47,406 bases of DNA from Candidatus Omnitrophota bacterium (GCA_015233405.1 JADFXT010000017.1:1-47406), one strand, 5' to 3'. Counted from the stretch's first letter, positions 19,531 to 42,468 are shown. The notes: generated by a model not told the origin, from the letters alone. Program-made: numbers and translations.

Positions 19531-19534
19531 ATTG

Positions 19535-21706
19535 ATGAAAAAAAAGAAACTGCTTATCACTGGAATCAGCGGTCTTTTGGGTAGTAACTTAGCCTATGTC
19601 CTAAAGAACCGTTATGAGATCTTGGGCTGGTATCATGACCATCCTATATCGGTTGTAGGTGTTTCTGTCCGCCGGGTCAATGTCCTTGATAAGAACCTTC
19701 TTAAGACGTCATTGGTGGAATTTCAGCCTGACATTATCATCCATTGTGCAGCGCAGGCCAATGTGGATGCTTGTGAGGAAAACCCTCGATTAGCAGAATC
19801 GTTGAATGTTCAAGGGACAAAAAACCTTATCGAAAGTGTCGCCTCTTTGCCGATAAAGGTGATACATATTTCAACGGATTTAGTCTATAGCGGAAAGAAG
19901 GGGCGTTATAAGGAAACGGACGCTCTTCAGCCTGTGAATTATTACGGTAAGACAAAAGTAAGCGCTGAAATTATCGTTTCCAAATTTCCCAGAAGTGTTA
20001 TTTTGCGCACAAATTTCTTTGGTTGGAATGTTCGGGAGGATAAACATAGTTTGGCAGAATGGGCTATTGAAGAAATAAGCCATCATCGCCCGATATTAGG
20101 TTTTAAGGACGTTTATTTTTCATCCCTTTATACGTTCGATCTGGCAGAGATCGTTCATAAAATTATTGCACGGGATCTTCAAGGTGTTTTTAATTGCGGA
20201 AGTTCTACGGCTGTTTCCAAATACAATTTTGTAAAGGCTATTGCCCGGAAAACGGGGCTGGCCACCCTTTATATTAAGCCCGTTTTCGTAGACGCTGTTG
20301 GTCTGCCAGCCAAGCGAGGCAAAAATTTATCGCTTAATGTCGCGAAGCTTTCTAAAGGGTTGGGGCTGAAATTGCCAACCATCGAAGAAACGATGAACCG
20401 TTTTATTAAAGATTACAAGAGAAGAGTTTACGACCAGGTACGGTCATGGCAGGCAAAAGTTTATTATCCCACTATGGAAACTATTCCTTATGGACGGCAA
20501 AATTTGGATGAAGATGACATTGAAGCGGTTGTTGCAGTCATGAAAACGGGGAATCTTACCCAAGGACCAAAGATCCCTGAGTTTGAGAACGCTTTATGCC
20601 AGGTTACGGATGCGTCTTTTGCCGTAGCCGTGAATTCAGCGACTTCAGGGCTTCATATCGCCTGTTTATCCGCCGGCGTTGGCCCGGGGGACGAGGTCAT
20701 TACATCTGCCAATACGTTTGTCGCGTCGGCCAATTGCGCTGTTTATTGCGGAGGAAAACCTGTGTTCGCCGATATCGATCCCAGGACTTACAATATTTCC
20801 CCCGAAGAAGTTGAACGGAAGATAAGCCCGCGGACCAAAGCGGTCATCCCGGTTCATTTTGCCGGGCAGAGTTGTGATATGGAAACTATCAAGGAAATTG
20901 TCAATCGGGCGGAGAAGAAATTCGGCCACAAGATTTTTATTATTGAAGATGCCAGCCACGCGTTGGGTTCGAAATTTAAAGATACAAAAGTCGGTTCCTG
21001 CGCTTATTCAGATATGGTGGTATTAAGTTTTCATCCCGTTAAGCATATTACCACAGGGGAAGGCGGGGCTGTTTTAACAAAGGATAAGGGCCTCTTGAGG
21101 AAATTACAATTCCTTCGCTCACATGGTATCACGAGTACTTCGGAAGAATTCGAATATGAGGAGAATGCTTTTGATCCGCTCTTGAAAGGGGAGAAATCTC
21201 CGCAGCAACGGTATTGGTATTATGAACAACAACATCTAGGATTTAATTATCGGATCACCGACCTGCAGTGCGCCTTAGGGTGTTCACAAATTAAAAAACT
21301 AGACGCCTTTCGTAAACGCCGTAAAGAAATCGTTGATTTTTATAATACCGCATTCAAGAACATACAGCACATTGTCACTCCCTATGCGGCGGATGATTGC
21401 GACACCAATTTCCATCTCTATGTTCTTTTGTTTGACTTTGAAAAGATCGGTTTAACCCGTGCGCAGATGATGCAGCATTTAAGGGATAATAAAATTTATA
21501 CCCAGGTTCACTATATTCCCGTTTATACTCAGCCATTTTATAGAAATACTTTTGGGAGCCGTTGGGGGGATTGTGTCGAGATGGAACGTTATTATAAGAA
21601 ATGTTTATCTATCCCCTTATATCCGGCAATGACTGAGTCTGATGTCCAAACGGTTTTCCGCGCTATTCAAACGATTATGGGCTCCCCAAGGGGCGTGAAA
21701 GTATAG
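19535..21706 (+). CDS. Fusion of RmlD-like reductase and PseC-type aminotransferase
   Basis: A 723-residue two-domain enzyme. Residues 1-300 are an RmlD-like SDR (GISGLLG at 10-16, STDLVYSGKKG, YYGKTK). From about residue 310 a complete PseC-type DegT aminotransferase begins (IPYGRQNLDEDDIEAV, NSATSGLH, GDEVITSANTF, IIEDASHALGS, Schiff-base Lys503 in FHPVKHITTGEGG). PseC aminates C4 of the PseB product. The SDR half could reduce the same 4-keto sugar or modify the product. ATG 19535 is preferred to TTG 19532; GGAG lies about eight bases upstream. PseC and RmlD are normally separate proteins of about 380 and 290 residues; there is no stop or frameshift between them here. Confidence 0.92.
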   Translation: MKKKKLLITGISGLLGSNLAYVLKNRYEILGWYHDHPISVVGVSVRRVNVLDKNLLKTSLVEFQPDIIIHCAAQANVDACEENPRLAESLNVQGTKNLIESVASLPIKVIHISTDLVYSGKKGRYKETDALQPVNYYGKTKVSAEIIVSKFPRSVILRTNFFGWNVREDKHSLAEWAIEEISHHRPILGFKDVYFSSLYTFDLAEIVHKIIARDLQGVFNCGSSTAVSKYNFVKAIARKTGLATLYIKPVFVDAVGLPAKRGKNLSLNVAKLSKGLGLKLPTIEETMNRFIKDYKRRVYDQVRSWQAKVYYPTMETIPYGRQNLDEDDIEAVVAVMKTGNLTQGPKIPEFENALCQVTDASFAVAVNSATSGLHIACLSAGVGPGDEVITSANTFVASANCAVYCGGKPVFADIDPRTYNISPEEVERKISPRTKAVIPVHFAGQSCDMETIKEIVNRAEKKFGHKIFIIEDASHALGSKFKDTKVGSCAYSDMVVLSFHPVKHITTGEGGAVLTKDKGLLRKLQFLRSHGITSTSEEFEYEENAFDPLLKGEKSPQQRYWYYEQQHLGFNYRITDLQCALGCSQIKKLDAFRKRRKEIVDFYNTAFKNIQHIVTPYAADDCDTNFHLYVLLFDFEKIGLTRAQMMQHLRDNKIYTQVHYIPVYTQPFYRNTFGSRWGDCVEMERYYKKCLSIPLYPAMTESDVQTVFRAIQTIMGSPRGVKV

Positions 21707-21709
21707 ATA

Positions 21710-21769
21710 ATGTTCATGAAAAGAAAAGTGTCCCTTATAATTGCCATGAAGGAGGTCTCTCGGGAATGA
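21710..21769 (+). CDS. Small 19-codon open frame ending on the next start (remnant or leader)
   Basis: In the gap after the fusion gene, ATG 21710 opens 19 codons (MFMKRKVSLIIAMKEVSRE) whose TGA overlaps the ATG of the E2-like gene (ATGA). The KVSLII segment looks like the first strand of a GT2 glycosyltransferase, so this may be the leftover start of one. It could equally be a chance frame or a coupling leader. No ribosome site is obvious before it. Confidence 0.25.
   Translation: MFMKRKVSLIIAMKEVSRE
21749..21756 (+). promoter_or_regulatory. Strong ribosome binding site of the E2-like gene
   Basis: AAGGAGGT, a near-complete anti-16S match, lies nine bases before ATG 21766. It is one of the two strongest sites I noticed and suggests the E2-like gene is well translated independently of upstream genes. 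Confidence 0.7.
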
Positions 21770-22938
21770 TTCAGAAAATCTTTATTCCCCAAGTGAATGT
21801 GAATGACCAAAGCGCTACCGTTGTGCGCTGGTATGTCGCTGAATCGTCGTTCGTAAACAAAGGGGAAGCCCTTTGTTTGATCGAAACGCAGAAAGCCGCA
21901 AGTGACATTTACGCCGATAAGAGTGGATATCTGAGGATTGTTTGCCCTGAGGGGCGAGAGGTCTCCACGGGAATGGTTATTGGGTATGTTTCGGATTCTT
22001 TAGAAGAAGTTCTTTTAGAGGAAAATGACGGTTCGTTGAAAAACTCTCAGAATAACCTCGCGAGTGGCCGCAGGGCGACAGTAAAAGCGCAATTGCTGGC
22101 GAAGAAGTTTAACATTGATTTAGCTGATGTCCCTGCAGACGGAGTGGTCAAAGAGAGCGATGTATATCTGTTTTTGGAGAAAAAAGGAAGCACGCGGGAG
22201 ACCTGTTCTTCCCAAGAGGGGACGGCGATGCCCGCCGGGGTCGAACAGGACTTGATCGGGAGCGTCGAGCCGTTGTCCTCGATCCAAAAGAAAGTCTGCT
22301 CTGCGGTAGAAGAGTCCTTACGCCGGAATGTGGGAAGTTACATTTCCGTCGAAGTCCGGGTGGACAAAGTCTTAGCGGTCATCAAAGAATATGTTTCTTT
22401 AAAAAGGAAAATGGTTCGCCTCAATGACGTTATTATTAAAGCGGCCGGACTGGCTCTCAAGAAATTTCCCCTGATGAACGCGTTTTATTGGAAGGGACAG
22501 ATCGCGCGTTATCGGTCCATCAATATCGGCATCATCATGGATTATCAAGGAAGTTTGGTGGCGCCTGTCATCAAGGATGTCTCTGAAAAGACCGTTGAGC
22601 AGATTGCCGTCGAATCGGGGCTTTTGCAGATGAAGGCTTTAAAGAACCAGTTCGTTCCTGAGGATTTTGCCGGAGGGACTTTTACGGTTACAAATTTAAG
22701 CGGGTTGGGCGTCAAACATTTTATGCCGATCATCTACGGGTATCAGTCATCCATATTAGGGGTTTCCGCGGAGCACTTGTCTTGCGTGGAAGACGGCCCT
22801 TCGACCCCGCGGATGGGGCGCGTTATCAATTTAGAAATGACCTATGACCATCGACTTGTCAATGGTATTCAGGCAGCGGTTTTCTTAAAGGAAATCAAGA
22901 GTTTTATTGAAACCGCCGAGATTGAGAAAGAAGTTTGA
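21766..22938 (+). CDS. 2-oxoacid dehydrogenase E2-like acyltransferase (lipoyl, subunit-binding and catalytic domains)
   Basis: A 390-residue protein with complete E2 order: a lipoyl domain (1-77, lipoyl Lys43 in IETQKAASDI), a peripheral subunit-binding domain (about 100-138) and a catalytic CAT-like domain (165-385, TFTVTNLSGLGV, YQSSILGV). E2 normally moves an acyl group from lipoyl-lysine to CoA. The active-site motif DHRxxDG reads DHRLVNG (361-367): His362 is present but the usual Asp is Asn366. No E1 or E3 gene is adjacent; E1 genes lie at 29048-30985. An acyl carrier protein starts three bases downstream, so transfer to ACP rather than CoA is a serious option (inference). Location cytosolic. 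Confidence 0.9.
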   Translation: MIQKIFIPQVNVNDQSATVVRWYVAESSFVNKGEALCLIETQKAASDIYADKSGYLRIVCPEGREVSTGMVIGYVSDSLEEVLLEENDGSLKNSQNNLASGRRATVKAQLLAKKFNIDLADVPADGVVKESDVYLFLEKKGSTRETCSSQEGTAMPAGVEQDLIGSVEPLSSIQKKVCSAVEESLRRNVGSYISVEVRVDKVLAVIKEYVSLKRKMVRLNDVIIKAAGLALKKFPLMNAFYWKGQIARYRSINIGIIMDYQGSLVAPVIKDVSEKTVEQIAVESGLLQMKALKNQFVPEDFAGGTFTVTNLSGLGVKHFMPIIYGYQSSILGVSAEHLSCVEDGPSTPRMGRVINLEMTYDHRLVNGIQAAVFLKEIKSFIETAEIEKEV

Positions 22939-22941
22939 GTT

Positions 22942-23181
22942 ATGGATGATGTTCTACGACTGATTTTCAAAGAAGCTTTGGCGTTGACCGATATTGATGC
23001 CCAGCAGATCCGGGAAGATTCGTCGATCGTCACAGTCAAAGGATGGGATTCTTTGGGGCATTTAAGATTGATCGCGGCTCTTGAGAAAACATACGGCATC
23101 ACCATTGACCCTTTGGAGGCCATAGATCTGGTCGATGTGACGGCGATCCAAAATCTGGTGTCGAAGAAGAAATCTCTTTAA
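22942..23181 (+). CDS. Acyl carrier protein
   Basis: A 79-residue acidic helical protein with the phosphopantetheine attachment site at Ser37 in GWDSLGHLRLI. Residues 20-33 and 50-75 match ACP helices I, III and IV. It is not flanked by fatty acid synthesis genes, so it is a specialised ACP. Position between the E2-like enzyme and a GNAT acyltransferase suggests it carries an acyl group to an amino sugar. A phosphopantetheinyl transferase is not in the window and must act from elsewhere. Confidence 0.93.
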   Translation: MDDVLRLIFKEALALTDIDAQQIREDSSIVTVKGWDSLGHLRLIAALEKTYGITIDPLEAIDLVDVTAIQNLVSKKKSL

Positions 23182-23192
23182 GGAGCGAATGG

Positions 23193-23738
23193 ATGGAAGT
23201 CCCTTTTTTGGTAGGCGAGAGGTATTATTTACGTAAATTGACCGAAGAGGACATCAACGATCGATATTTGTCCTGGATGCAGGATCCTACGGTCACGGAA
23301 TTCTTGGCGCCTATTCATCAGCCCCATACTATTGAGAGTCTTAAAGAGTATTGGCGTCTGAACCAGCGCAGTAACACATATTTTTTGGCAATCATAGATC
23401 GAGAGACTGATACTCATATTGGGAATGTCCGGCTGGACATTTATGATTCCGAGAAGCGTTTTGCCGAGCTTGGAATGCTTGTCGGAGAAAAAGCATTCTG
23501 GGGAAAGTCCTGTATGTATGATGTGTATGGGATGTTGATCGAATATGGGTTCGTTCAGCTAAAACTTAAAGGGATAACTGTCGGAGCGGAGAGTTCGCAT
23601 ATCGCGTCTATCATTACTTTTAAGAAATTGGGATTCAAGCTGCAGACAAAGCTAGAGAACCATTATCAGAAAAACGGGAAATCCGTGGACGTTTTTAGAT
23701 TTATTCTAGAAGCGAACGATTATTCTAAGTGTGGCTAA
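23193..23738 (+). CDS. GNAT-family N-acyltransferase
   Basis: A 181-residue RimJ/RimL-like GNAT. The opening RYYLRKLTEEDIND and SWMQDPTVTEFL are typical of this subgroup; the acyl-donor pyrophosphate loop lies near GEKAFWGKSCM (about 97-107); the final GFKLQTKLENHYQKNGKSVDVFRF strand closes the fold. Family members acylate amino groups of proteins, sugars or antibiotics. AGGAG at 23181-23185 precedes ATG 23193. Next to the ACP, it may use acyl-ACP as donor to acylate an amino sugar; some GNATs are known to accept acyl-ACP. It could also serve as the PseH step. Confidence 0.87.
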   Translation: MEVPFLVGERYYLRKLTEEDINDRYLSWMQDPTVTEFLAPIHQPHTIESLKEYWRLNQRSNTYFLAIIDRETDTHIGNVRLDIYDSEKRFAELGMLVGEKAFWGKSCMYDVYGMLIEYGFVQLKLKGITVGAESSHIASIITFKKLGFKLQTKLENHYQKNGKSVDVFRFILEANDYSKCG

Positions 23739-24633: not shown

Positions 24634-25943
24634 TGGGGAAGTCTCAGGCATTATATGTTAAAGCAAAGAAAATCATCCCCGGTGGAACGCAGTTGTTATC
24701 CAAACGACCCGAATTGTTTTCTTTGGGCGTTTGGCCGGCCTATTATCAGAAAGCCAAAGGGGCCGAGGTCTTGGACCTCGACGGGAACAAATATGTGGAT
24801 ATGAGTATCGGCGGCATCGGGGCGAATGTCCTGGGATATGCGGACCCCGATGTTAATAAGGCCGTTAAGCAGGCGATCGATGATGGTTCCAGCTCGTCGT
24901 TAAATTGTGCGGAGGAAGTTGAACTGGCCCAGGTGTTGTGCCGGATACATCCATGGGCAGAGCAGGCTCGTTTTGCCCGTTGCGGCGGGGAAGCGATGGC
25001 GGTAGCCGTCAGGATTGCCCGAGCTTTAACCAGACGAGACACAGTGGCTATTTGCGGGTACCACGGTTGGCACGATTGGTATCTGGCCGCGAATCTGGGA
25101 ACAGAGAATGCCTTGGGCGAACACCTTTTGACCGGGTTAAGCCCGACGGGCGTTCCGAAAGCGTTAAAAGGGACAACGCAAGTGTTTCGTTACAATGATC
25201 TTGAAAGTTTAGAACGCTTGGTTTCCCAACACAAAGATAGCTTGGCTGCTATTATTATGGAACCGATCAGAAACGTTTATCCTCAGACAGGATTTTTGGA
25301 GGGGGTTTGTAAGCTTGCCAGAAAGAATCGATCAGTGCTTATCTTTGATGAGGTTTCTTCTGGATTTCGTATGAATGCGGGTGGTGCGCACTTGATTCTC
25401 AACGCGGAGCCGGATATTGCCGTATTTTCAAAGGCCATGGGGAATGGCTATCCGATTGCCGCTATTATTGGACGAAAGAAAGTTATGGAAGCAGCGCAAA
25501 GTTCATTTATCAGTAGCACGATGTGGACGGAACGGATAGGGCCGGTTGCGGCGTTAGCCACGATCAGGAAGTTTCAGATAAAGAATGTAGCTAAGCATTT
25601 GATGAATGCCGGAAAACGGGTTCAGGAAGGATGGGCGCAAGCGGCGGAAAAAGCGGGTTTGAAGATAAAAATATCGGGTATCTATCCGCTTAGCCATTTT
25701 GCCTTCGACGATGCTGATCAGCCCATCATGAAAGCCTACTTCATTCAAGAGATGCTAAAAGAGGGATATCTGGCGTCGAATTTGTTTTATTCGATGTTTG
25801 CCCATACGGACAAACAGGTGGAAGGATATTTGATCGCGGCGGAGAAAATATTCAAGGAAATGTCGGAGTTGCTTGCGCGGAAGAAACTGAGCTCTGCTTT
25901 AAAAGGGCAGCCGGCATCTTCCGGATTTAAGAGGTTGACATGA
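24630..25943 (+). CDS. Class III (glutamate-1-semialdehyde-like) aminotransferase
   Basis: A 437-residue PLP enzyme of fold type I, class III, close in style to HemL. Visible: PGGTQLLSKRPELF (17-30), RCGGEAMAVAVRIAR (117-131), GYHGWHDWY (143-151), Asp240-Glu241 in LIFDEVSSGFR and Schiff-base Lys268 in FSKAMGNGYPIAA. It is unlikely to be haem synthesis because it is embedded in the CMP-ulosonate genes. Similar HemL-like enzymes occur in glycan loci, where terminal or side-chain amination of a sugar acid is a reasonable role (for instance at C8 or C9). Its ATG overlaps the AKR stop. Confidence 0.9.
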   Translation: MMGKSQALYVKAKKIIPGGTQLLSKRPELFSLGVWPAYYQKAKGAEVLDLDGNKYVDMSIGGIGANVLGYADPDVNKAVKQAIDDGSSSSLNCAEEVELAQVLCRIHPWAEQARFARCGGEAMAVAVRIARALTRRDTVAICGYHGWHDWYLAANLGTENALGEHLLTGLSPTGVPKALKGTTQVFRYNDLESLERLVSQHKDSLAAIIMEPIRNVYPQTGFLEGVCKLARKNRSVLIFDEVSSGFRMNAGGAHLILNAEPDIAVFSKAMGNGYPIAAIIGRKKVMEAAQSSFISSTMWTERIGPVAALATIRKFQIKNVAKHLMNAGKRVQEGWAQAAEKAGLKIKISGIYPLSHFAFDDADQPIMKAYFIQEMLKEGYLASNLFYSMFAHTDKQVEGYLIAAEKIFKEMSELLARKKLSSALKGQPASSGFKRLT

Positions 25944-26695
25944 TCTTGGCTATTGTCCAGGCACGGATGACTTCAACAAGGCTTCCAGGAAAGGTTTTAA
26001 TGCCGGTTTTGGGTAAGCCGCTTATCCAGCATCTTTTGGAGCGGTTAATTTTATCAAAACGGATCGACAAGATCATCGTCGCTACGTCGCAAGCAAAGGA
26101 AAGTGATCCATTAGAGACGTTCGTTAAGAATCTTGGTTTTGAGGTTTATCGCGGTAGCGAGCAAGACGTTCTGGATAGATTTTATAAGGCGGCTTTACAG
26201 TATCGGCCCCAGACGGTCGTCCGGATCACGGGCGATTGTCCGCTTTTAGACGCGGCGGTTTGCGATGAGGTTATCCGGGTTTTTCAAAAGGACAGGTTGG
26301 ATTACGCGCAGACAGGCCCTTCGTTTGCCGAGGGATTAGATTGTGAAGTGTTTTCTTTTCAGTCTTTGGAAAGAGCTTGGAAAGAGGCGCGGTTGAAATC
26401 CGAGAGAGAGCATGTGACGCTCTATTTGCGAAATCATCCGGAGTTTATCAAAAGCAAGATGTTAATTAACGGGACGGATGATAGCAAATATCGTCTGACC
26501 CTGGATGAAAAAGACGATTATTGTGTCGTTAAAGCGATCTTTGAAGGATTGCAAGGAGAAGGCAAAAAGGATTTTTCCATGAAAGAAGTTAAATCTTTCC
26601 TTGATGCCCATCCGGAGATTTATCAGGTCAACGCGCATATCATTAGGAATGAAGGGTTGCAGAGATCACTGTCTGAAGAAGGCGGGGTGGAATAA
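25940..26695 (+). CDS. SpsF/PseF-type cytidylyltransferase
   Basis: A 251-residue nucleotidyltransferase with the CTP-binding opening ILAIVQARMTSTRLPGK (2-18) and ITGDCPLLD for the metal site. SpsF/PseF-type enzymes are placed with NeuB-family synthases and are thought to form CMP-nonulosonic acid. ATGA overlap with the aminotransferase. Another cytidylyltransferase (KdsB) is at 40038, so the window carries two distinct CMP-sugar branches. Product assignment to CMP-pseudaminic-like acid rests on the neighbour PseI. Confidence 0.88.
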   Translation: MILAIVQARMTSTRLPGKVLMPVLGKPLIQHLLERLILSKRIDKIIVATSQAKESDPLETFVKNLGFEVYRGSEQDVLDRFYKAALQYRPQTVVRITGDCPLLDAAVCDEVIRVFQKDRLDYAQTGPSFAEGLDCEVFSFQSLERAWKEARLKSEREHVTLYLRNHPEFIKSKMLINGTDDSKYRLTLDEKDDYCVVKAIFEGLQGEGKKDFSMKEVKSFLDAHPEIYQVNAHIIRNEGLQRSLSEEGGVE

Positions 26696-27465
26696 TGGAA
26701 ATCGGTTTAAAGATATGGGCGTCCAATAAAGGGTATGCTAAAGAGGTCAGCAATTTGATTGATCAGTGTTTCTGCGATTTTATCGAAATTTACGTTGATG
26801 AGGGTTGTAAAGAGGAAGATGCGGAATTCTGGAGAAACATAATCAAGAAAGTTTCGCTTCATGCCCCACATAGTTATGGGGGATTTAATCCTGCAAACCC
26901 TGGTTTCTTAGAAGAGAAGACAACAGCCCTTCGTAAAATAGAGGTTTTTCGTCGGGAGTTAAATCCCCTGTATATCATTTTTCACCCGGGCATCGAAGGC
27001 CAATTGACAGAGACAATCCGTCAATATAAGAAGTTTAAACAGGAGTTCCCCGCCATTTTTGATTTGGCATATATTGAGAACAAACCAAAGATAGGTTGTA
27101 ATGATGAAATTTGCTTGGGGGCTTCGATGGCTGAAGTGAATGAAATACAAGAGTGCCTTGGTTTTGGGTTCTGTTTGGATATTGCTCATGTCATGTGTTA
27201 TGCGGCTTGGGCCAGGCAATCTTGGGAGCCGATCCTGGACGACTTTTTGTTATTAAAGCCAAACGTGTTTCATCTTTGCGACGGGTTCATTTCTTCAGAG
27301 AAAGACAGCCATCTGCACTTGGGGGAAGGCGATTATGATTTCAAAAATGTTTTGGAGAAAATGCCTCGTGACGGCCGTGTCGTCATAGAGGCCCAGCATG
27401 ATTCAACTGAACGTTTGGATGATTTTCGAAAAGATGTTGTTTTTCTAAGAAAGTGTTTGTCATGA
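26695..27465 (+). CDS. Xylose-isomerase-like TIM-barrel protein
   Basis: A 256-residue protein resembling AP-endonuclease 2 / sugar isomerase TIM barrels: HAPHSYGGFNP (71-81), FHPGIEGQ, IENKPK, FCLDIAHVMCY, FHLCDG and HLHLGEGDYDF supply Glu, His and Asp residues that in this superfamily bind divalent metals. Likely an epimerase or isomerase acting on a sugar intermediate of the nonulosonate pathway. Overlaps neighbours by one base (start) and four bases (end). The specific reaction is unknown; it may fill the step left by the missing PseG hydrolase, but that is speculation. Confidence 0.75.
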   Translation: MEIGLKIWASNKGYAKEVSNLIDQCFCDFIEIYVDEGCKEEDAEFWRNIIKKVSLHAPHSYGGFNPANPGFLEEKTTALRKIEVFRRELNPLYIIFHPGIEGQLTETIRQYKKFKQEFPAIFDLAYIENKPKIGCNDEICLGASMAEVNEIQECLGFGFCLDIAHVMCYAAWARQSWEPILDDFLLLKPNVFHLCDGFISSEKDSHLHLGEGDYDFKNVLEKMPRDGRVVIEAQHDSTERLDDFRKDVVFLRKCLS

Positions 27466-28505
27466 ATATTAATGGTAAAAAAATTGGAGATGGGAAGCCC
27501 TGCTATATAATCGCGGAGATGTCAGCTAACCATGGAGGTTCTTTTCAAAAGGCCCTCTCTATTGTGCGCGAAGCAGGGAAAGCCGGTGCGAATGCGGTAA
27601 AACTGCAGACATATACCGCCGACACCATGACCATCAATTGTAAAAATAAGTATTTTCGAATCGGAGGAAAATCTTTGTGGGCCGGGAAGACGCTTTATGG
27701 GCTCTACAAAAAAGCGGCAACTCCATGGGAGTGGCATGCACCGTTGCAGAAAGAAGCAAAAAAAGTTGGCTTGGATTTCTTTTCGACCCCCTTTGACGAG
27801 ACTGCTGTCGATTTTCTCGCCTCATTAAGAGTCCCCGTATACAAGATCGCTTCTTTTGAGTTGGTTGACAACCTGCTTCTTGAGAAGATCGCAAAGACAA
27901 GAAAACCGATCATCCTATCGACGGGCATGGCCTCTTTGAAAGAAATACAAACTGCTTTAAGCATCTTAAAAAAGAAAAAGTCCGGCCCGATCGCTTTGCT
28001 CAAATGCATTAGTGCCTATCCTGCCAAAACGGAAGAAATGAATCTAAGAACCATCGTGGATCTAAGAAAAAAATTCGGTGTTGTCGTTGGGTTCTCTGAT
28101 CATACGGTGACCAACACCTCTGGGGTTATCGCTGTCTCCTTGGGGGCCAAGATCATAGAAAAACACCTGAAGCTTAATGATAGGGACAAGACCCCGGATA
28201 GCGCTTTTTCTTTGAACCCACGGCAATTTAAGAATTTTGTTGATGAAATCAGGGCTGCAGAAAGCGCTTTAGGCCAGGAATCCTATGGCGTCACGGCACA
28301 GGAAAAATATAATATTAGGTTTCGCCGTTCGATTTTTGTTGTAAAAGATATTTCTCAAGGCCGTGAGCTGACGGAGGAAAACATTCGTATTATTCGTCCG
28401 GGGTTTGGTCTTTCTCCTTATTTTTACAAAGATATTCTAGGTAAAAAGGCCAGGAAGACCATCCTACGAGGGACACCACTGACCCGAGATATCATAGACG
28501 TATAG
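27462..28505 (+). CDS. pseI: Pseudaminic acid synthase (NeuB family, PseI)
   Basis: A 347-residue PEP-dependent synthase that condenses a 6-carbon 2,4-diamino sugar with PEP to make a nonulosonic acid. YIIAEMSANHGGS (15-27), KLQTYTADTMT, FFSTPFDETAVDFL, KIASFEL, ILSTGMAS, LKCISAYPA, GFSDHT and IEKHLKL follow NeuB/PseI closely, and the C-terminal antifreeze-like (SAF) domain (about 285-347) is present. The pattern fits PseI better than NeuB or LegI. The start ATG 27462 overlaps the previous stop; an in-frame GTG at 27453 is less likely. PseB, PseC-type and a cytidylyltransferase are nearby, but no PseG. Confidence 0.93.
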   Translation: MNINGKKIGDGKPCYIIAEMSANHGGSFQKALSIVREAGKAGANAVKLQTYTADTMTINCKNKYFRIGGKSLWAGKTLYGLYKKAATPWEWHAPLQKEAKKVGLDFFSTPFDETAVDFLASLRVPVYKIASFELVDNLLLEKIAKTRKPIILSTGMASLKEIQTALSILKKKKSGPIALLKCISAYPAKTEEMNLRTIVDLRKKFGVVVGFSDHTVTNTSGVIAVSLGAKIIEKHLKLNDRDKTPDSAFSLNPRQFKNFVDEIRAAESALGQESYGVTAQEKYNIRFRRSIFVVKDISQGRELTEENIRIIRPGFGLSPYFYKDILGKKARKTILRGTPLTRDIIDV

Positions 28506-28516
28506 GAAAGGTTGTT

Positions 28517-29005
28517 ATGGAAAAAAGAATTTTTTTTAGAAAAGCGGTGTCGGAGGATGCTGAGCTTCTTTATCAATGGAGAAATGAGGAGGCTTCTCGA
28601 GAGAATGCTTTTGATCCTTCGGAGATCCCTTGGAAAAAGCATTTGGAATGGTTTAAATCAAAGGTAAACAACCCCGCAACCTATATTTTTATTCTTAATG
28701 ACGCAGGGGGATCCCCAGTTGGGCAAGTCCGTTTTGATATCGAGACCGCTGGTACGGCGGTTTCCCATGTTATTATCGATCATAAATTCAGGCAAAAAGG
28801 ATATGCTGTGGAAGGATTGATGGAAACTTGCAGTTTTCTTTTGCGAGAATCTGCCGTTAAACAAATATTAGCCTATATAAAGAAATGTAACGATATATCT
28901 TATCGAACATTTAAAAAGGCTGGCTTTACAGAGATCGGGCAGACAATCATAAAATCAAACGATAGCTATATCATGCGATTTGAAAAAGTGAAAGCTCAGG
29001 ATTGA
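28517..29005 (+). CDS. GNAT-family acyltransferase (PseH-like)
   Basis: A 162-residue GNAT. AELLYQWRNEEASRENAF (16-33) and the HLEWFKSKV helix match PseH and the GNAT domains fused to PseG proteins; the donor loop is DHKFRQKGYAVEG. It may acetylate the 4-amino sugar made by the PseC-type domain, the step before hydrolysis to a free sugar in pseudaminic synthesis. A second GNAT is at 23193. AAAGG precedes the ATG. Confidence 0.87.
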   Translation: MEKRIFFRKAVSEDAELLYQWRNEEASRENAFDPSEIPWKKHLEWFKSKVNNPATYIFILNDAGGSPVGQVRFDIETAGTAVSHVIIDHKFRQKGYAVEGLMETCSFLLRESAVKQILAYIKKCNDISYRTFKKAGFTEIGQTIIKSNDSYIMRFEKVKAQD

Positions 29006-29047: not shown

Positions 29048-29950
29048 ATGCATCAAGAAGAGGCTAAGCTCAATTTATATTCAAAAATGTTTCTCATTCG
29101 TTCTTTTGAGAAAAGGTTATTCGACCTTTTTAAGAAAGGAAAGTTGTTCGGCACGACTCACGGATGCATTGGGCAAGAGGCGGTCGCCGTTAGCGTTGTT
29201 TCCACCTTGCCTAAAGACACGATCTATTTTAGCAACCACCGTTGTCATGGTCATTTTCTTGCCTATAGCGATCGCCCGGATTTATTGTTGGCGGAATTGA
29301 TGGGAAAGAAAGGAGGCGTATGTGCAGGCCGTGGGGGGAGCCAACATCTTTGCTATAAGGATTTTTTTACGAATGGCGTGCAGGGGGGGATCGTGCCTGT
29401 GGCGACAGGGATCGCCCTCGCCGAAAAACTAAAGAAATCTGGACGTACGGTTTGTGTCTTTATTGGGGATGGGACTTTGGGCCAGGGTGTTGTCTATGAG
29501 TCCATGAACATGGCGTCTTTATGGTCTTTGCCGATCTTGTTTGTTCTGGAAAATAATCAGTACGCCATGAGCACTTTCGTCAGGAACGCCGTTGCGGGAT
29601 CCATCACGGCGCGAGCGGAGGCCTTCGGGATCAGGTCCTGGGATATTGTTACCTCTGATGTCTTTGCCATGTGTCAGACGGTGCAAAAGGCCTGCGATTA
29701 CATTGCTGAAGAGCCACGACCTGGTTTTTTGGCTTTTGAGACCTATCGTTTCTGTGGTCATAGCAAGTCCGACGAATGCCATTATCGAACAGCCGCTGAG
29801 GTTCAAACATGGGCAGAGAAGGATGCCTTTGAGATCTTACAGACGTCGATAAAAGATAAGGGAAAGCGTGAACTTATCGAGCAGCAATGCTTAAATCGTT
29901 TGGAAGAAGTTGTCCGAGAAGTTGAGGCTATGCCGTTTGCCGATGTCTAA
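29048..29950 (+). CDS. 2-oxoacid dehydrogenase E1 alpha subunit (pyruvate dehydrogenase-like)
   Basis: A 300-residue TPP enzyme subunit. The TPP motif runs from GDG (140-142) to Asn170 in VLENNQYAMS. Other E1 alpha marks are GQEAVAVS (42-49), NHRCHGH (63-69), AGRGGSQH (93-100) and YRFCGHSKSDECHYR. It decarboxylates a 2-oxoacid and, with E1 beta, reductively acylates lipoate on an E2. Length and motifs are close to bacterial PdhA/AcoA. It is followed without gap by E1 beta. No housekeeping E2/E3 pair is adjacent; instead a lipoyl-hexapeptide fusion follows. This placement in a glycan locus is the key oddity. Confidence 0.93.
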   Translation: MHQEEAKLNLYSKMFLIRSFEKRLFDLFKKGKLFGTTHGCIGQEAVAVSVVSTLPKDTIYFSNHRCHGHFLAYSDRPDLLLAELMGKKGGVCAGRGGSQHLCYKDFFTNGVQGGIVPVATGIALAEKLKKSGRTVCVFIGDGTLGQGVVYESMNMASLWSLPILFVLENNQYAMSTFVRNAVAGSITARAEAFGIRSWDIVTSDVFAMCQTVQKACDYIAEEPRPGFLAFETYRFCGHSKSDECHYRTAAEVQTWAEKDAFEILQTSIKDKGKRELIEQQCLNRLEEVVREVEAMPFADV

Positions 29951-30985
29951 ATGAGGGGGTGTGATGTGTATATTTCCGAAGCCATAAATAAGGTTCTATT
30001 TGAATTATTGACGACAAATCCGGAAGTCTATTTGATGGGAGAGGATATAGAATCTCCATATGGGGGAGCCTTTAAGATCACTAAGAACTTGTCGGAACAA
30101 TTTAAAAGCCGCGTCATCAACACGCCTATCAGCGAATCTTCTTTGGTGGGTGTTGCGAGTGGCATGGCTATGAGAGGATTGCGACCTGTTTTAGAGATCA
30201 TGTTCGGGGATTTTATGACTTTGGGAATGGATCAGCTGGTAAATCACGCATCGAAATTCCATTATATGTACAATGGTCAAGTCGATGTTCCGATGTTTAT
30301 TCGGACGCCAATGGGAGGTCGACGAGGTTATGGGCCAACCCACAGTCAAACGCTTGAGAAGTTGTTGTTGGGAATCCCGGGGATCAAAGTGCTTGCTCTT
30401 AGTCAAAGACATTCTTTTCATGATATCTATATTCATGCTGTGACTAAAGAAAAATGCCCGGTCATACTTATCGAAAACAAGGCCCTGTATTCTATGCGTC
30501 AGGAGTTGCCGGAAAACGGACGGAGCGGTGATTTCTTTATTACAGAATCAGCCGGGCCGTATCCTTGTCTTACATTGTCGCTCAACAATTTTGTGAGCGC
30601 CGATGCCACGGTTGTCACTTATGGTGGAATGCTTCCATTGGTAGAAAAAGCCGCCACGCAACTATGTTTGGATGAAGAGATCTTCGTAGAAATTGTTGTT
30701 CCTTCCTTGTTAGGTGTGCCTCTAGATATCAATTGGGTCGAAGCCTCTTTGCGGAGAACGGGGAGGCTTGTCATTGTCGAAGAAGGGACTCAGTCTTTTG
30801 GCTTTGGTTCGGAAGTGGCTGCCTTGGCCTGTTCAAAGTATTTCAAGCTTTTGAAATATCCCGTAATAAGGATTGCGGCCGCCGATTCCCCTATTCCCTG
30901 CGCCAGACATTTAGAAAATCTTGTTTTGCCTAATGAAGCTAATATCTACCAAGAATTGAAATGGGGGATTCTTAATGACTCATGA
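29951..30985 (+). CDS. 2-oxoacid dehydrogenase E1 beta subunit
   Basis: A protein of up to 344 residues with the transketolase-like pyrimidine domain and C-terminal domain of E1 beta: MGEDIESPYGGAFKIT, TPISESSLVG with the TPP-activating Glu, EIMFGDFM, GGRRGYGPTHSQ, and VEEGTQSFGFGSEV. ATG 29951 follows the E1 alpha stop directly. GTG 29966 is also possible, because GAGGGGG at 29953-29959 is well placed and VYISEAINKVL then begins the protein as usual. It forms an alpha2-beta2 heterotetramer with the upstream product. The next gene overlaps it by 11 bases. Confidence 0.93.
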   Translation: MRGCDVYISEAINKVLFELLTTNPEVYLMGEDIESPYGGAFKITKNLSEQFKSRVINTPISESSLVGVASGMAMRGLRPVLEIMFGDFMTLGMDQLVNHASKFHYMYNGQVDVPMFIRTPMGGRRGYGPTHSQTLEKLLLGIPGIKVLALSQRHSFHDIYIHAVTKEKCPVILIENKALYSMRQELPENGRSGDFFITESAGPYPCLTLSLNNFVSADATVVTYGGMLPLVEKAATQLCLDEEIFVEIVVPSLLGVPLDINWVEASLRRTGRLVIVEEGTQSFGFGSEVAALACSKYFKLLKYPVIRIAAADSPIPCARHLENLVLPNEANIYQELKWGILNDS

Positions 30986-32576
30986 TATCCTTGTTCCTAG
31001 AATAAATTCCAATGACGATTCCTATATTTTAGTTGAATGGGAGTTTTCGGCCGGCGATTTTGTCAAGGAGGGGGATGTTTTATGTGTTATTGAAACGTCA
31101 AAAAGCACCTTCGAGATTCACGCGGAGGAGTCGGGGTATATTCATATTTTTGTGCATGAACATTCTAAAATAAAAGAAGGCGATGCTATTTGTAGGCTTA
31201 GTAAAGAAAAAGAGATGCCTTTGAATGAAAAGTTTGATTTGTCCCGCAATCCTTCATTGGCATCCGATAAACAGATAAAAGCGACCAAAAAAGCGATTGA
31301 AACCGCCAGAGATCTTGGCGTTGATCTTGGAAAAATGATGGGTGATGGTATTATCAGCCAGAAAGATGTTGAGGCCTTTGCCCAATCTCAAAATGTTGAA
31401 GATAAAAAACAACAGGAGGTGTCCTTCGTCACCTTTAAAATGGATAGAGACAGGATTATTAACGATGAATTCCTTAAAGAGCTCTTAAAAGATTTAGGGG
31501 ATCGTCGTGAATTCGCGAGTTTGCCGTCGCAAAAGAAAATAGAGATCTATAGGGACAAGGGCGCGCTTATTGGGGAAGATGTTAAATTTGAGAGAGGTAG
31601 TTGTATCATTTCTCAATTTATGGACATAGGGGCGGGGACGGTCTTTGGGGAAAATTCAGTATTTCAGTCTAAAGCGATGAAGATAGGTCGGATGTGCCGG
31701 TTTGGCGATCAATTGCGGGTGGCGTCCACCCTATTGGACATTGGCGATCTTCTATTTACGGATAATGGGATCAAGATCGGGGAGGGTGGAGAGTGGGGGC
31801 CTGAGTCGATCTTAAAGATCGGGGATTCCTGTTTTATTGGGGAAGAGTGTATGATCAATACCAGTAGAACTGTTACTATCGGCAACGAAGTTTGTTTAGC
31901 TTATGGGGCAAAAATCTTCACACATAATTTCTGGCAACCAGTCCTTGACGGATATGCCGCTTTATTTAACCCTGTAAAAATCAACGATGGCTCGGTGATC
32001 GGCGTCAATGTGGTTATTATGCCAGGCGTGGAAGTTGGGGCAGGAAGCAGTGTCTTGACAAATTCTTTGTTGGCGACGAACGTTCCTTCAGGCAGTGTTT
32101 ACGCCGGTATCCCGGCCATGATGATAAAACCAGCAGGCTCCTATCCTATAAATCTTTCTTATGATGAGCGGGAAAAAATGATTTATAAGATTTTTGAAAG
32201 CTTGGCTGAAGATTTAAGTTTTAAAGGAGACGATGCGCAGGTTTTACAAGAGAAGGAAGGTGTGAAGCTGATTTGGCGGAATGAAAACACCGTTTTTGTT
32301 TATAGACGACGTTTAAAATCAGGTGATGATTTGGGGGCAGGGGCGTTTAAGCGTTGGGTGCTTTTAACTTTTGAGAATGTTCTTGAGGACCTGAAAGACG
32401 CTATAACGGTGTTCGATTTGAGTAAGAAGGAAGTCAATGGCAAGCAAGACGAATACAGCGATGAGTTACGAGAGGCGCTTAGAAAACGTGGGATACGTTT
32501 TAAGCCTATTTTATGGAGATATAAAAGGAGAGCCCAATGGATAGATTTGCCGATGCCTTTAAAATTCGAGAAGTAG
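30975..32576 (+). CDS. Lipoyl domain - subunit-binding domain - hexapeptide acyltransferase fusion
   Basis: A 533-residue protein of unusual build. Residues 1-77 are a lipoyl domain with target Lys43 in IETSKSTFEI. Residues about 99-137 resemble the E1/E3-binding domain of E2 proteins. A charged linker leads to a left-handed beta-helix (about 199-386) with repeats such as IGAGTVFGENSVF, IGDSCFIGEECMI and IPAMMIKP; His317 in FTHNFW is a good catalytic base by analogy with sugar O/N-acetyltransferases. Residues 395-533 form an unrecognised alpha/beta C-terminal domain. The E2 CAT domain is absent. Overlap with E1 beta (11 bases) and PIG-L (40 bases) ties it to both. Inference: acyl groups pass from lipoyl-Lys to a sugar. 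Confidence 0.9.
   Translation: MTHDILVPRINSNDDSYILVEWEFSAGDFVKEGDVLCVIETSKSTFEIHAEESGYIHIFVHEHSKIKEGDAICRLSKEKEMPLNEKFDLSRNPSLASDKQIKATKKAIETARDLGVDLGKMMGDGIISQKDVEAFAQSQNVEDKKQQEVSFVTFKMDRDRIINDEFLKELLKDLGDRREFASLPSQKKIEIYRDKGALIGEDVKFERGSCIISQFMDIGAGTVFGENSVFQSKAMKIGRMCRFGDQLRVASTLLDIGDLLFTDNGIKIGEGGEWGPESILKIGDSCFIGEECMINTSRTVTIGNEVCLAYGAKIFTHNFWQPVLDGYAALFNPVKINDGSVIGVNVVIMPGVEVGAGSSVLTNSLLATNVPSGSVYAGIPAMMIKPAGSYPINLSYDEREKMIYKIFESLAEDLSFKGDDAQVLQEKEGVKLIWRNENTVFVYRRRLKSGDDLGAGAFKRWVLLTFENVLEDLKDAITVFDLSKKEVNGKQDEYSDELREALRKRGIRFKPILWRYKRRAQWIDLPMPLKFEK
32524..32530 (+). promoter_or_regulatory. Ribosome binding site of the PIG-L gene inside the preceding gene
   Basis: AAAGGAG lies six bases before ATG 32537 and inside the end of the lipoyl-hexapeptide gene. 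It supports the 40-base overlap between the two reading frames as genuine. Confidence 0.65.
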
Positions 32577-33205
32577 TTATCATTGTTGCCCATGCCGACG
32601 ATGAATCCTTGGGATGCGGAGGGTATATGCCTATCCTTAAGGCGCAAGGCAAGCGAGTTAAGATCGTCGTCGCTTCAGATGGGATCGTAAAGGCTCGAGG
32701 TAAAGATCAGGAAAATCGGATCTCAGTCCATGCGGCATGTAAAACCCTCGGCGTGGATCAAAAAGATGTCTTTTTCTTGGATCTGGAGGACCAGAAATTT
32801 GAGAAATATTATTACGCTGACATCGTTAATAAGTTAAAGTCCCTTAAGATGGACCCGGATTTGCTTATCACTCATGGGGGATCTGATCTTAATAATGACC
32901 ATCGATTTTTAAATCAATGTGTGCTGATATATGGGAGATCCGTTTCTCGGCAAATTAATATTTTGGGGTGCGAGATCCCCAATTCGACGGAATGGTCAGG
33001 GAAACGTTTTGATGCCAGGTTTTATGTGGATATTGATAAAACCTTGAGGCTGAAACAAAAAGCATTTTCTTGTTACAAAAACGAGGTTCGCTCTTTTCCT
33101 CACCCCTGGTCGATGAAAGGATTAGAAGTTCTGGCGTTGCAAAGAGGCATGGAGGTTGGGCTGAAGCATGCGGAGGCGTATGAAATTATTCGATGGTTCG
33201 CTTAA
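32537..33205 (+). CDS. PIG-L/LmbE-family deacetylase
   Basis: A 222-residue zinc-dependent N-deacetylase. AHADDES (18-24) supplies His19, Asp21 and Asp22; THGGSDLNNDH (112-122) supplies His113, Asp117 and His122. Members remove N-acetyl from GlcNAc-type sugars, lipids or mycothiol precursors. Directly downstream of the lipoyl-acyltransferase, it suggests an exchange: an N-acetyl group is removed and a different acyl is attached. It overlaps genes on both sides. Sugar substrate not known. Confidence 0.9.
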   Translation: MDRFADAFKIREVVIIVAHADDESLGCGGYMPILKAQGKRVKIVVASDGIVKARGKDQENRISVHAACKTLGVDQKDVFFLDLEDQKFEKYYYADIVNKLKSLKMDPDLLITHGGSDLNNDHRFLNQCVLIYGRSVSRQINILGCEIPNSTEWSGKRFDARFYVDIDKTLRLKQKAFSCYKNEVRSFPHPWSMKGLEVLALQRGMEVGLKHAEAYEIIRWFA

Positions 33206-35378: not shown

Positions 35379-35385
35379 AATGATC

Positions 35386-36141
35386 ATGAGCTTGAGAAAA
35401 AGAATACAGAACAAACAGCTAACTATAGGTTCGTGGTTGACTATAGGCCATCCTGCCGTCGCTGAGATCATGTCGAAAGCCGGTTTTGATTGGCTTGCTA
35501 TTGACATGGAACATTCTCCTTTAACGGTTTCCCAATGTCAGGAACTTATCCGTGTTATTGACCTTTGCGGAGTCGTTCCCCTGGTACGTGTCGGGGCCAA
35601 TGAACCTCTTTTGATCAAGCGGGCCATGGATGCTGGGGCACACGGCGTTATTGTTCCTATGGTTAATTCAGCAGCCGAGGCTCAAGCAGCTGTGACCGCT
35701 GTGAAATACCCTCCTCAGGGAAAACGCGGAGTGGGTTTGGCGCGTGCTCAAGGGTACGGAACCGCTTTTCAAACATATCAGAGTTGGAATAAGAAAGAAA
35801 GCATTGTGATCGTCCAAATCGAGGATATACGGGCTGTAGAGAATCTTGAAAAGATATTTTCAGTCGACGGAGTGGATGCTTTTATGGTTGGGCCGTATGA
35901 TCTTTCAGCATCTTTGGGTATTTCTGGCCAGTTTGGTCATCCTAAAATGTTATCTGCCATGGCAAAGATAAAAGAAATGGCCAAAAAGACAGGGGTGCCG
36001 GCCGGTTATCATGTGGTTTCTTCGGATCCGCGATTGGTTAAGAAAAAAATTAAAGAAGGATATACTTTTGTCGCTTTTGGTGTGGATTTCCTGTTCTTGG
36101 GCAATAATTGCCGAGAGGGATTAAAATGTTTGAAGAAATAA
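35386..36141 (+). CDS. HpcH/HpaI-family class II pyruvate aldolase
   Basis: A 251-residue TIM-barrel aldolase. It has the HpaI-type residues His43 (AIDMEHSPL), Arg68 (PLVRVGANEP), metal ligands Glu146 (IVQIED) and Asp172 (VGPYDLSASLG). The family joins or splits 2-keto-3-deoxy acids into pyruvate and an aldehyde with a divalent metal. In a glycan locus with KdsB downstream, synthesis of a 2-keto-3-deoxy sugar acid from pyruvate and a sugar aldehyde is plausible instead of catabolism. It lies between two glycosyltransferase-like genes. Substrate aldehyde unknown. Confidence 0.92.
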   Translation: MSLRKRIQNKQLTIGSWLTIGHPAVAEIMSKAGFDWLAIDMEHSPLTVSQCQELIRVIDLCGVVPLVRVGANEPLLIKRAMDAGAHGVIVPMVNSAAEAQAAVTAVKYPPQGKRGVGLARAQGYGTAFQTYQSWNKKESIVIVQIEDIRAVENLEKIFSVDGVDAFMVGPYDLSASLGISGQFGHPKMLSAMAKIKEMAKKTGVPAGYHVVSSDPRLVKKKIKEGYTFVAFGVDFLFLGNNCREGLKCLKK

Positions 36142-41707: not shown

Positions 41708-42457
41708 ATGACAAGACAAACTATGGATCGATATTTGTCCCTCGTCAAAGAGGCCGCATTGTTGGCTGGCCAGGTCCTTTTAAAAAGAAATAACCCGTGC
41801 AGGTCCGTAAAGACTGATACTTTGCATGACATAAAGATCTCTGCGGACACAGTCTCCGAGCGCTTGATCATAGATTTTTTAGCCCGGAAGACGAATTTTT
41901 CAATCCTTTCCGAAGAGGCGGGGATGATAGAAGGCGCTAATAAAGATTTTTGTTGGATCGTCGATCCTTTGGACGGCAGCCTCAATTATTTTCGTGGGAT
42001 TCCGATGTGCTGTGTTTCTATCGGTCTTTGGAAAAGAGGAGCACCGCTACTTGGCGTTGTTTATGATTTTAACCGTTTAGAAATGTTTTCCGGCATCGTC
42101 GGCCAAGGAGCCAAACTCAATGGCCGCAAGATAACCGTTAGTTCTGTCAGGGAAAAACAAAAAGCTATCTTGGCGACGGGTTTCCCTGCTCAGACGCAGT
42201 ATTCCAAGAAAAGTGTTTCGAACATGGTGCAAACCATTCAATCCTATAAAAAAGTGCGTTGGTTCGGCTCCGCCGCTTTATCGGTTTGTTATGTTGCCTG
42301 CGGCAGGGTTGATGGGTATCACGAAAAGAACATCTTTATATGGGACGTTGCTGGCGCCATTCCCGTCGTCAAGGCGGCTGGTGGAAAAGTGTGTACGAAA
42401 GAAACGGAAAAAGAATACTGTCTTGATGTCACTATTGACAATGGGTCGTTAAAATAA
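41708..42457 (+). CDS. Inositol-monophosphatase-family sugar phosphatase
   Basis: A 249-residue Mg-dependent phosphatase. Glu69/Glu70 (LSEEAG), the signature WIVDPLDGSLNYFRG with Asp86 and Asp89, and the C-terminal IFIWDVAGAIPVVKAAGG motif with a third Asp are all present. Family enzymes remove phosphate from inositol, fructose bisphosphate, PAP or sugar phosphates. In this branch it may dephosphorylate a ketodeoxy sugar acid phosphate (the role KdsC has for Kdo). CysQ-like PAP removal, useful with a sulfotransferase, is another possibility. Confidence 0.9.
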   Translation: MTRQTMDRYLSLVKEAALLAGQVLLKRNNPCRSVKTDTLHDIKISADTVSERLIIDFLARKTNFSILSEEAGMIEGANKDFCWIVDPLDGSLNYFRGIPMCCVSIGLWKRGAPLLGVVYDFNRLEMFSGIVGQGAKLNGRKITVSSVREKQKAILATGFPAQTQYSKKSVSNMVQTIQSYKKVRWFGSAALSVCYVACGRVDGYHEKNIFIWDVAGAIPVVKAAGGKVCTKETEKEYCLDVTIDNGSLK

Positions 42458-42468
42458 AGGATTAGAAA

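Follow-up and report, generated by a model that had tools for sequence, protein, structure and literature searches.

What are the two subunits of a 2-oxoacid dehydrogenase-type E1 doing in a locus for a bacterial sugar? The question is raised by a stretch of DNA of 47,406 nucleotides from Candidatus Omnitrophota bacterium (GCA_015233405.1 JADFXT010000017.1:1-47406; the whole stretch is hereafter the window, and its genome G000), in which the genes for E1 alpha and E1 beta are directly followed by a gene for a protein that joins a lipoyl domain to a left-handed beta-helix (LbH) acyltransferase, and then by a gene for a PIG-L type deacetylase. The answer that we propose is that these genes probably constitute a lipoate-dependent sugar acylation module, in which E1 would charge the lipoyl arm of the fusion protein and the LbH domain would hand the acyl group on to a sugar. 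Here, we set out the evidence from the window and from the genomes in which similar fusions occur, and we weigh the alternatives.

E1 genes and a lipoyl acyltransferase fusion in a pseudaminic acid locus

The genes under study are the following:

29048-29950, + strand: E1 alpha subunit of the thiamine diphosphate (ThDP)-dependent 2-oxoacid/acetoin dehydrogenase type (PF00676, 6e-56)
29951-30985, + strand: E1 beta subunit (PF02779, 3.6e-32; PF02780, 2.3e-19)
30975-32576, + strand: fusion of a lipoyl domain, a peripheral subunit-binding domain (PSBD)-like segment and an LbH domain, 533 residues, with an 11-base overlap with E1 beta (PF00364, 44.1 bits; PF00132, 30.7 bits)
32537-33205, + strand: PIG-L type deacetylase (PF02585, 1.1e-17)

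The four genes abut or overlap, exactly at the coordinates that the earlier note on this DNA had given for them, and the Pfam matches confirm its reading of E1 alpha and beta, lipoyl plus hexapeptide, and PIG-L. They lie inside a pseudaminic-acid locus, so called because its PseB, PseC and PseI exceed their NCBIfam cut-offs. The E1 alpha gene is the sole full-length E1_dh match in G000. Among solved structures, the E1 subunits are closest to the E1 of pyruvate and 2-oxoacid dehydrogenases, the best PDB match of E1 alpha being the human pyruvate dehydrogenase (PDH) E1 alpha and E1 beta being likewise nearest to E1 beta structures. The ThDP motif GDG..N and the H238-S239 loop are invariant in an alignment of lipoyl-associated E1 alphas, Glu62 and His131 are invariant across eight E1 betas from sugar and flagellar loci, and the metal motifs of PIG-L are intact (AHADDE at residue 18, DHR at 121).

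The fusion protein comprises a lipoyl domain (residues 7-75, with Lys43), a PSBD-like segment (about 101-137), the LbH domain (about 195-385, with His317) and a C-terminal domain (about 395-510) over which no Pfam family was reported in any of the fusions. The lipoyl and hexapeptide matches exceed their cut-offs (22.1 bits for PF00364 and 27 bits for PF00132), and an NCBIfam WcaF-type match covers residues 280-386. The PSBD falls under the Pfam threshold in the window protein; its Chloroflexota homologue (locus L074) passes with 55.3 bits for PF02817 (cut-off 23.7), the best E value in two further fusions is 0.041, and a profile built from seven fusions aligns to E2 and E3BP structures over both the lipoyl domain and the PSBD. 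The lipoyl match, the Chloroflexota PSBD and the profile bear out the earlier assignment of the first 140 or so residues to lipoyl and E1/E3-binding domains. The CAT domain that defines the E2 family was searched for with PF00198 and found in none of the fusions scanned, the LbH domain standing in its place; the fusion is therefore not an E2 by family definition, and we propose that it acts like one as far as the acylation of lipoate.

By NCBIfam, PDB profile and fold matches, the LbH domain is nearest to sugar O- and N-acyltransferases. An AlphaFold model of the fusion reproduces the domain order (mean pLDDT 63 for the whole fusion and 67 for the LbH part alone), and in Foldseek searches the whole model retrieves E2 lipoyl domains and the LbH part NeuO and galactoside acetyltransferase. 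His317, which lies within the motif T-H-x-x-W-Q, is aligned 1-2 residues off a His of the maltose/galactoside-type enzymes and is presumably catalytic. Biotin rather than lipoate was considered as the cofactor and rejected, as the attachment motif is E-[ST]-x-K and not AMKM and the nearest PDB matches are E2 lipoyl domains.

Recurrence of the fusion in other phyla

Homologues were surveyed in a single collection scan of about 85,000 species genomes (the GTDB species collection) and about 440 genomes of the phylum. The protein query retrieved two full-length relatives from 384 phylum genomes, and their alignment was then used for the scan of the GTDB species, with two strict patterns. In what follows, type A denotes the fusion of lipoyl, LbH and C-terminal domains, and type B a fusion of lipoyl and PglD domains.

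Six further full-length type A fusions, 28-34% identical to that of the window, were found in Chloroflexota (L074), Tariuqbacter (L075), Neomarinimicrobiota (L076 and L077) and, twice, Omnitrophota, these last being the two relatives already retrieved by the protein query. PF00364 is above its cut-off in the fusions of the window, L074, L075 and L076 and is present in all rows of alignment A1; in L077 the domain is recognised by alignment. Lys43 and His317, the two residues singled out in the earlier note, are invariant in all seven proteins, together with Cys286, Thr316, Trp320-Gln321 and Gly326-Tyr327. The gene order E1 alpha, E1 beta, fusion is the same in all four loci from other phyla (L074, L075, L076 and L077), with spacings of –4 to +4 bases; since it recurs in three other phyla at about 30% protein identity, the arrangement is more than chance. 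An assembly artefact or a chance fusion was rejected in view of seven full-length proteins across four phyla. In genomes G136 and G315, the fusion is not beside E1, and a single full-length E1 pair is located elsewhere in the genome; that of G136 (L094:3272-5250) lies in a flagellar gene cluster other than the region with flagellin, FliD-like and MAF-like genes in which its fusion is found. In a tree of E1 alpha, based on a small sample, the window groups with the E1s of both fusion types, that of L074 excepted (99/99).

Every locus for which context is available is a sugar or flagellar-glycosylation locus. NeuB genes occur in the L076 and L077 loci, and in L076 an acyl carrier protein (ACP) and an FkbH-like protein are encoded upstream of E1. 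The neighbours in L074 are a Gfo/Idh dehydrogenase, a hexapeptide transferase and a DegT-type aminotransferase (the last by sequence reading only), which together resemble the gene set for diacetamido sugars. In the window, as in L076 and L077, the gene directly after the fusion is one for PIG-L; in L034, a PIG-L gene lies no more than 1.2 kb away. As conserved neighbours, the two partners named in the earlier note fare differently: E1 adjoins the fusion throughout the loci outside Omnitrophota, and PIG-L does so in the two Neomarinimicrobiota loci, is absent from the Chloroflexota locus and was not seen in G136.

No other fusion was found among 55 genomes searched of the same genus, family and order as G000; viral contigs gave no type A homologues and only two type B matches, to the LbH part only; and tblastn of plasmids gave lipoyl-free or partial relatives only. 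Lipoyl matches in G038, G049 and G052 were discarded as ordinary PDH-type operons, read by eye. An RtcB-family protein is encoded in the Neomarinimicrobiota nonulosonate loci (L077:9293-10669 and, similarly, L076:10873-12249), an odd site for an RNA ligase family. A second type of E1 alpha/beta pair, with no lipoyl protein nearby (L081:1358-3387, L096:6488-8641, L085:1384-3340), branches apart from the E1s of the fusions; in L081 and L096 it adjoins NDP-sugar epimerase-like genes, and it is perhaps a ThDP enzyme acting on sugars.

A second fusion type and genomes without a CAT domain

The type B fusion, which is an independent one, is found in genome G114, in a locus (L035) with PseB-like, PseC-like, PseI-like, cytidylyltransferase-like and GNAT genes followed by E1 alpha, E1 beta and the lipoyl-PglD protein (L035:8188-11175 for the last three). 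This protein of 360 residues combines a lipoyl domain with PglD_N and hexapeptide repeats. It can be aligned with the window fusion over the N-terminal part, but the acyltransferase belongs to the PglD/NeuD family, with the PglD-type histidine kept (by eye, AHSN where the NeuD of G315 has DHDC). No further type B fusion was found among the 384 phylum genomes. The strongest argument for a direct relay is that one lipoyl-docking module has become fused with two different sugar acyltransferases, immediately behind E1 genes and in sugar loci.

The search with PF00198 found no CAT domain in three genomes with type A fusions (G136, G315 and G477) or in G114, though all of them have E1; the same search was positive for 10 of 14 controls and for the remaining three genomes under comparison. 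With completeness of 94% for G136, 90% for G315 and 95% for G114, the chance of missing CAT in all three through incompleteness is about 0.06 x 0.10 x 0.05 = 0.0003, assuming independent losses. Because CAT was not found there, the fusion (type A in G136 and G315, type B in G114) is the only E2-like acyltransferase protein found in these genomes that could accept an acyl group from E1.

LipB/LplA-type enzymes, for the supply of lipoate, were found in all eight genomes examined. In G000, LipB is encoded beside a free-standing lipoyl domain of 76-78 residues with no E2 attached, directly downstream of lipB (G000:C11, L038:7627-8510). The need for an E3 from elsewhere, anticipated in the earlier note, is answered in this genome by one lipoamide dehydrogenase above cut-off, encoded outside the window; E3 is also above cut-off in G114, G476, G478 and G479.

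The rest of the locus and a second lipoyl protein

The other genes of interest in the window, all on the same strand, are the following:

18481-19530, + strand: PseB, UDP-GlcNAc 4,6-dehydratase (inverting) (TIGR03589, 473 bits, cut-off 407.75)
19532-21706, + strand: RmlD-like reductase fused to PseC aminotransferase (TIGR03588, 486.5 bits, cut-off 423.5, residues 318-715)
21766-22938, + strand: lipoyl-PSBD protein with a classical E2 CAT domain (PF00364; PF00198, 8e-50)
22942-23181, + strand: ACP of 79 residues with a DSL motif (PF00550, 23.5 bits, cut-off 20.8)
23193-23738, + strand: GNAT acyltransferase (PF13302, 1.7e-21)
25940-26695, + strand: sugar cytidylyltransferase-like protein of the KdsB/PseF superfamily (NF009905, 6e-19, below cut-off)
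27453-28505, + strand: PseI, pseudaminic acid synthase (TIGR03586, 462 bits, cut-off 340.25)
28517-29005, + strand: GNAT acyltransferase, PseH-like (PF13302, 7.6e-13; TIGR03585, 1.4e-8, below cut-off)
35380-36141, + strand: HpcH/HpaI-family aldolase (PF03328, 2.1e-42; TIGR02311 below cut-off)

The lipoyl-CAT protein and the ACP, about 8 kb upstream, had been overlooked in the earlier note, and they qualify its claim that the CAT domain has been replaced by a sugar acyltransferase: in G000 the replacement is not a simple one, as the lipoyl-CAT protein and the fusion must share the only E1 found in the genome. Its CAT is the sole one found in G000, a metagenome-assembled genome 84% complete, and its N-terminal module is homologous to that of the fusion. 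As the catalytic motif reads HRLVNG in place of HRxxDG (Asp to Asn), the activity of this protein is uncertain. Since one CAT protein and one full-length E1_dh were found genome-wide, a single E1 pair probably serves both lipoyl proteins in G000. In another Omnitrophota genome (G040), L036:8578-12534 encodes an E1 alpha-beta single chain, a lipoyl-CAT protein and a 214-residue protein with a C-terminal phosphopantetheinyl transferase (ACPS) domain.

It may be speculated that the HpcH/HpaI aldolase provides 4-hydroxy-2-oxo acids and hence 3-hydroxyacyl groups; its role goes no further than speculation because no aldolase was noticed in the other fusion loci. Inositol-phosphatase-like and phosphoglycerate-dehydrogenase-like genes at 41708-43392 of the window are, with the aldolase, possible suppliers of an unusual 2-oxoacid.

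Proposed mechanism and alternative readings

In the mechanism that we propose, E1 alpha/beta, with ThDP, would break down a small 2-oxoacid or alpha-hydroxyketone and reductively acylate the fusion at the lipoate carried by Lys43, with the PSBD-like segment as the docking site of E1. The LbH domain, as a trimer in place of the trimeric CAT of E2, would take the acyl group directly from the dihydrolipoyl arm and attach it, at an amino (less likely a hydroxyl) position, to a nucleotide-sugar or nonulosonate intermediate deacetylated by PIG-L, and the dihydrolipoate would be reoxidised by the shared E3 of the genome. In the window, the same E1 would probably also supply acyl groups to the lipoyl-CAT protein, from which they would pass to the neighbouring ACP and so to the GNAT acyltransferases. 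The relay from E1 through lipoyl and LbH to a sugar is well supported by comparison of the sequences. These show the domains, the conserved residues, the gene order, which partners are missing or single across a genome, and the enzymes of lipoylation, with E3 in G000; from them we infer that the fusion is lipoylated, that E1 acylates it, that lipoyl hands over to sugar directly, and what the part of PIG-L, the acceptor and the acyl group are. A pre-existing acyltransferase family has probably acquired the lipoyl part, as lipoyl-free relatives of the LbH part occur in Streptomyces; one of them, L044:8173-10023 on a plasmid of Streptomyces sp. MMBL 11-1, adjoins PIG-L and is near an AMP-binding protein.

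Several points weigh against this mechanism. LbH enzymes with known donors take acyl-CoA or acyl-ACP; homologues of the LbH and C-terminal domains without lipoyl in Streptomyces imply that the family can use another donor; and the window itself offers a CAT-type E2 and an ACP as an alternative route for the acyl group. The AlphaFold models are of modest confidence, and PIG-L is absent at the Chloroflexota locus and none was seen in G136. The main weakness is that reductive acylation requires the reoxidation of lipoate and that no E3 was found at 1e-60 in G136, G315 and G477.

The alternative that best survives is that LbH draws on acyl-CoA or acyl-ACP like any ordinary sugar acyltransferase and is only tethered by its lipoyl-PSBD part to an E1/E2 assembly that channels acyl-CoA or acyl-ACP to it. 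The lipoyl-CAT protein and ACP of the window, the ACP and FkbH-like protein upstream of E1 in L076, the binding of CoA by LbH relatives and the lipoyl-free relatives in Streptomyces would all fit such a tether. We nevertheless judge it unlikely: four genomes with E1 and a fusion have no CAT with which to produce acyl-CoA or acyl-ACP, a plain tether would not call for the conservation of Lys43 that is seen in all seven fusions, and the lipoyl domain is joined to two types of acyltransferase.

A different alternative concerns only what E1 consumes. That the acyl group comes from decarboxylation of a 2-oxoacid, as the earlier note had it, is uncertain: position 64 of E1 alpha is His in 9/9 lipoyl-associated E1s, versus Tyr in human PDH and in the Chloroflexota PDH-type E1 of L092. 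The HRxHGH pattern with this His64 is typical of acetoin dehydrogenases, and by this comparison an acyloin or ketose is a possible donor. E1 would then cleave such a compound in the manner of acetoin dehydrogenase or of NapB/NapD, whose glycolyl transfer is cited in PMC5384830, and the lipoyl-LbH protein would hand on acetyl or glycolyl. Of the solved structures, on the other hand, it is human pyruvate dehydrogenase that gives E1 alpha its best score, and we hold this donor to be quite improbable; it would, in any case, alter the substrate alone and leave the relay from lipoyl to LbH as it is.

A third possibility, that the fusion acts as an analogue of E2 and makes acyl-CoA for other enzymes, with an LbH trimer that either delivers the acyl group to CoA or is no more than a structural core, is very improbable. 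In its favour, the fusion is the sole E2-like acyltransferase in several genomes, and LbH trimers could take over the core role of the CAT trimer. Against it speak the likeness of the LbH sequence to enzymes with sugars or other hydroxyl or amine compounds as acceptors, the sugar or flagellar-glycosylation context of all loci that have one, and the PglD-type domain of type B.

The interpretation of the earlier note, a transfer of the acyl group from lipoate straight to an amino sugar freed by PIG-L, is thus upheld in part. It withstood both of the sequence-based refutations that the note had named, on the nature of the first 140 or so residues and on the adjacency to E1, and it is favoured by the CAT-less genomes and the type B fusion; the direct transfer and the link to PIG-L are conjectural in it, CAT is present in G000, and the 2-oxoacid is uncertain.

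Relation to known systems and significance

The system shares with the 2-oxoacid (pyruvate, branched-chain) and acetoin dehydrogenase complexes an E1 alpha/beta with ThDP and catalytic residues, lipoyl and PSBD in one chain, and, in G000, an E3 encoded elsewhere; unlike in those complexes, the CoA-using CAT gives way to a sugar-type LbH with an extra C-terminal domain, no E3 lies in the locus, and the loci are for sugars or flagella. A closer parallel is the pepteridine pathway of Photorhabdus, in which a pathway E1 and plu2796, an E2-like protein fused to NRPS T and C domains, acylate a pterin with groups derived from alpha-keto acids, with the E3 of the host (PMC5384830). There, too, a pathway-specific E1 and an E2-like fusion acylate a small molecule with an E3 borrowed from the genome; in that pathway, however, a carrier protein is the proposed recipient of the acyl group, which the C domain then joins to the pterin, whereas here the fusion has neither carrier protein nor CAT and the acyltransferase is an LbH. 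Neither within the fusion nor beside it was a carrier protein seen in the window, L074, L077 or L035, and one ACP lies upstream of E1 in L076. Lipoyl chemistry is also diverted with E1 to secondary metabolism by NapB/NapD of naphthyridinomycin (Peng et al., 2012) and by E1/E2-derived branched acyl-ACP systems (Craig and Brady, 2011), both as cited in PMC5384830. The lipoyl-CAT protein and ACP of the window look, by analogy, like a carrier-loading E2 of this NapD or pepteridine type; the fusion differs, as the product of those systems is an ACP thioester and not a sugar ester or amide, and no LbH fusion is described for them. As for the LbH sugar acyltransferases (maltose and galactoside O-acetyltransferase, NeuO, AntD, QdtC, WlbB, PglD/NeuD), they have in common with the fusion the hexapeptide fold, the conserved His and the sugar-locus context, but they are stand-alone users of acetyl-CoA or acyl-CoA, without lipoyl, PSBD or E1 neighbours.

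Among open-licence papers, we found none on lipoyl-LbH proteins, on lipoate-dependent sugar acylation or on E1 in nonulosonate loci. The earlier statement that no system of this kind had been described can accordingly be kept for the lipoyl-LbH protein, and has to be narrowed in that precedents for carrier loading by E1/E2 exist in pepteridine and naphthyridinomycin. A paper on a flagellin island (PMC4875605) was rejected as a lipoate precedent, as its "lipoylation" means fatty acylation.

Only five lipoate-dependent complexes had been characterised (PMC6067878). There is a fair chance that the module described here, a variation on the theme of acylation by E1/E2, represents a new class of them. 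More specifically, we think it on balance likely that in this class the acyl-lipoamide charged by E1 is the direct acyl donor for a sugar, without CoA or ACP, and that the lipoyl-docking module can be swapped like a cartridge, having been fused to three or more types of acyltransferase (CAT, LbH with the C-terminal domain, and PglD). If true, the relay would add a new role and would make sugar acylation independent of the acyl-CoA pool, so that acyl groups without a ready CoA ester could reach nonulosonic acids and flagellar glycans. For annotators, it offers a concrete reading of E1 genes in sugar loci, and one that is testable with few recombinant proteins.

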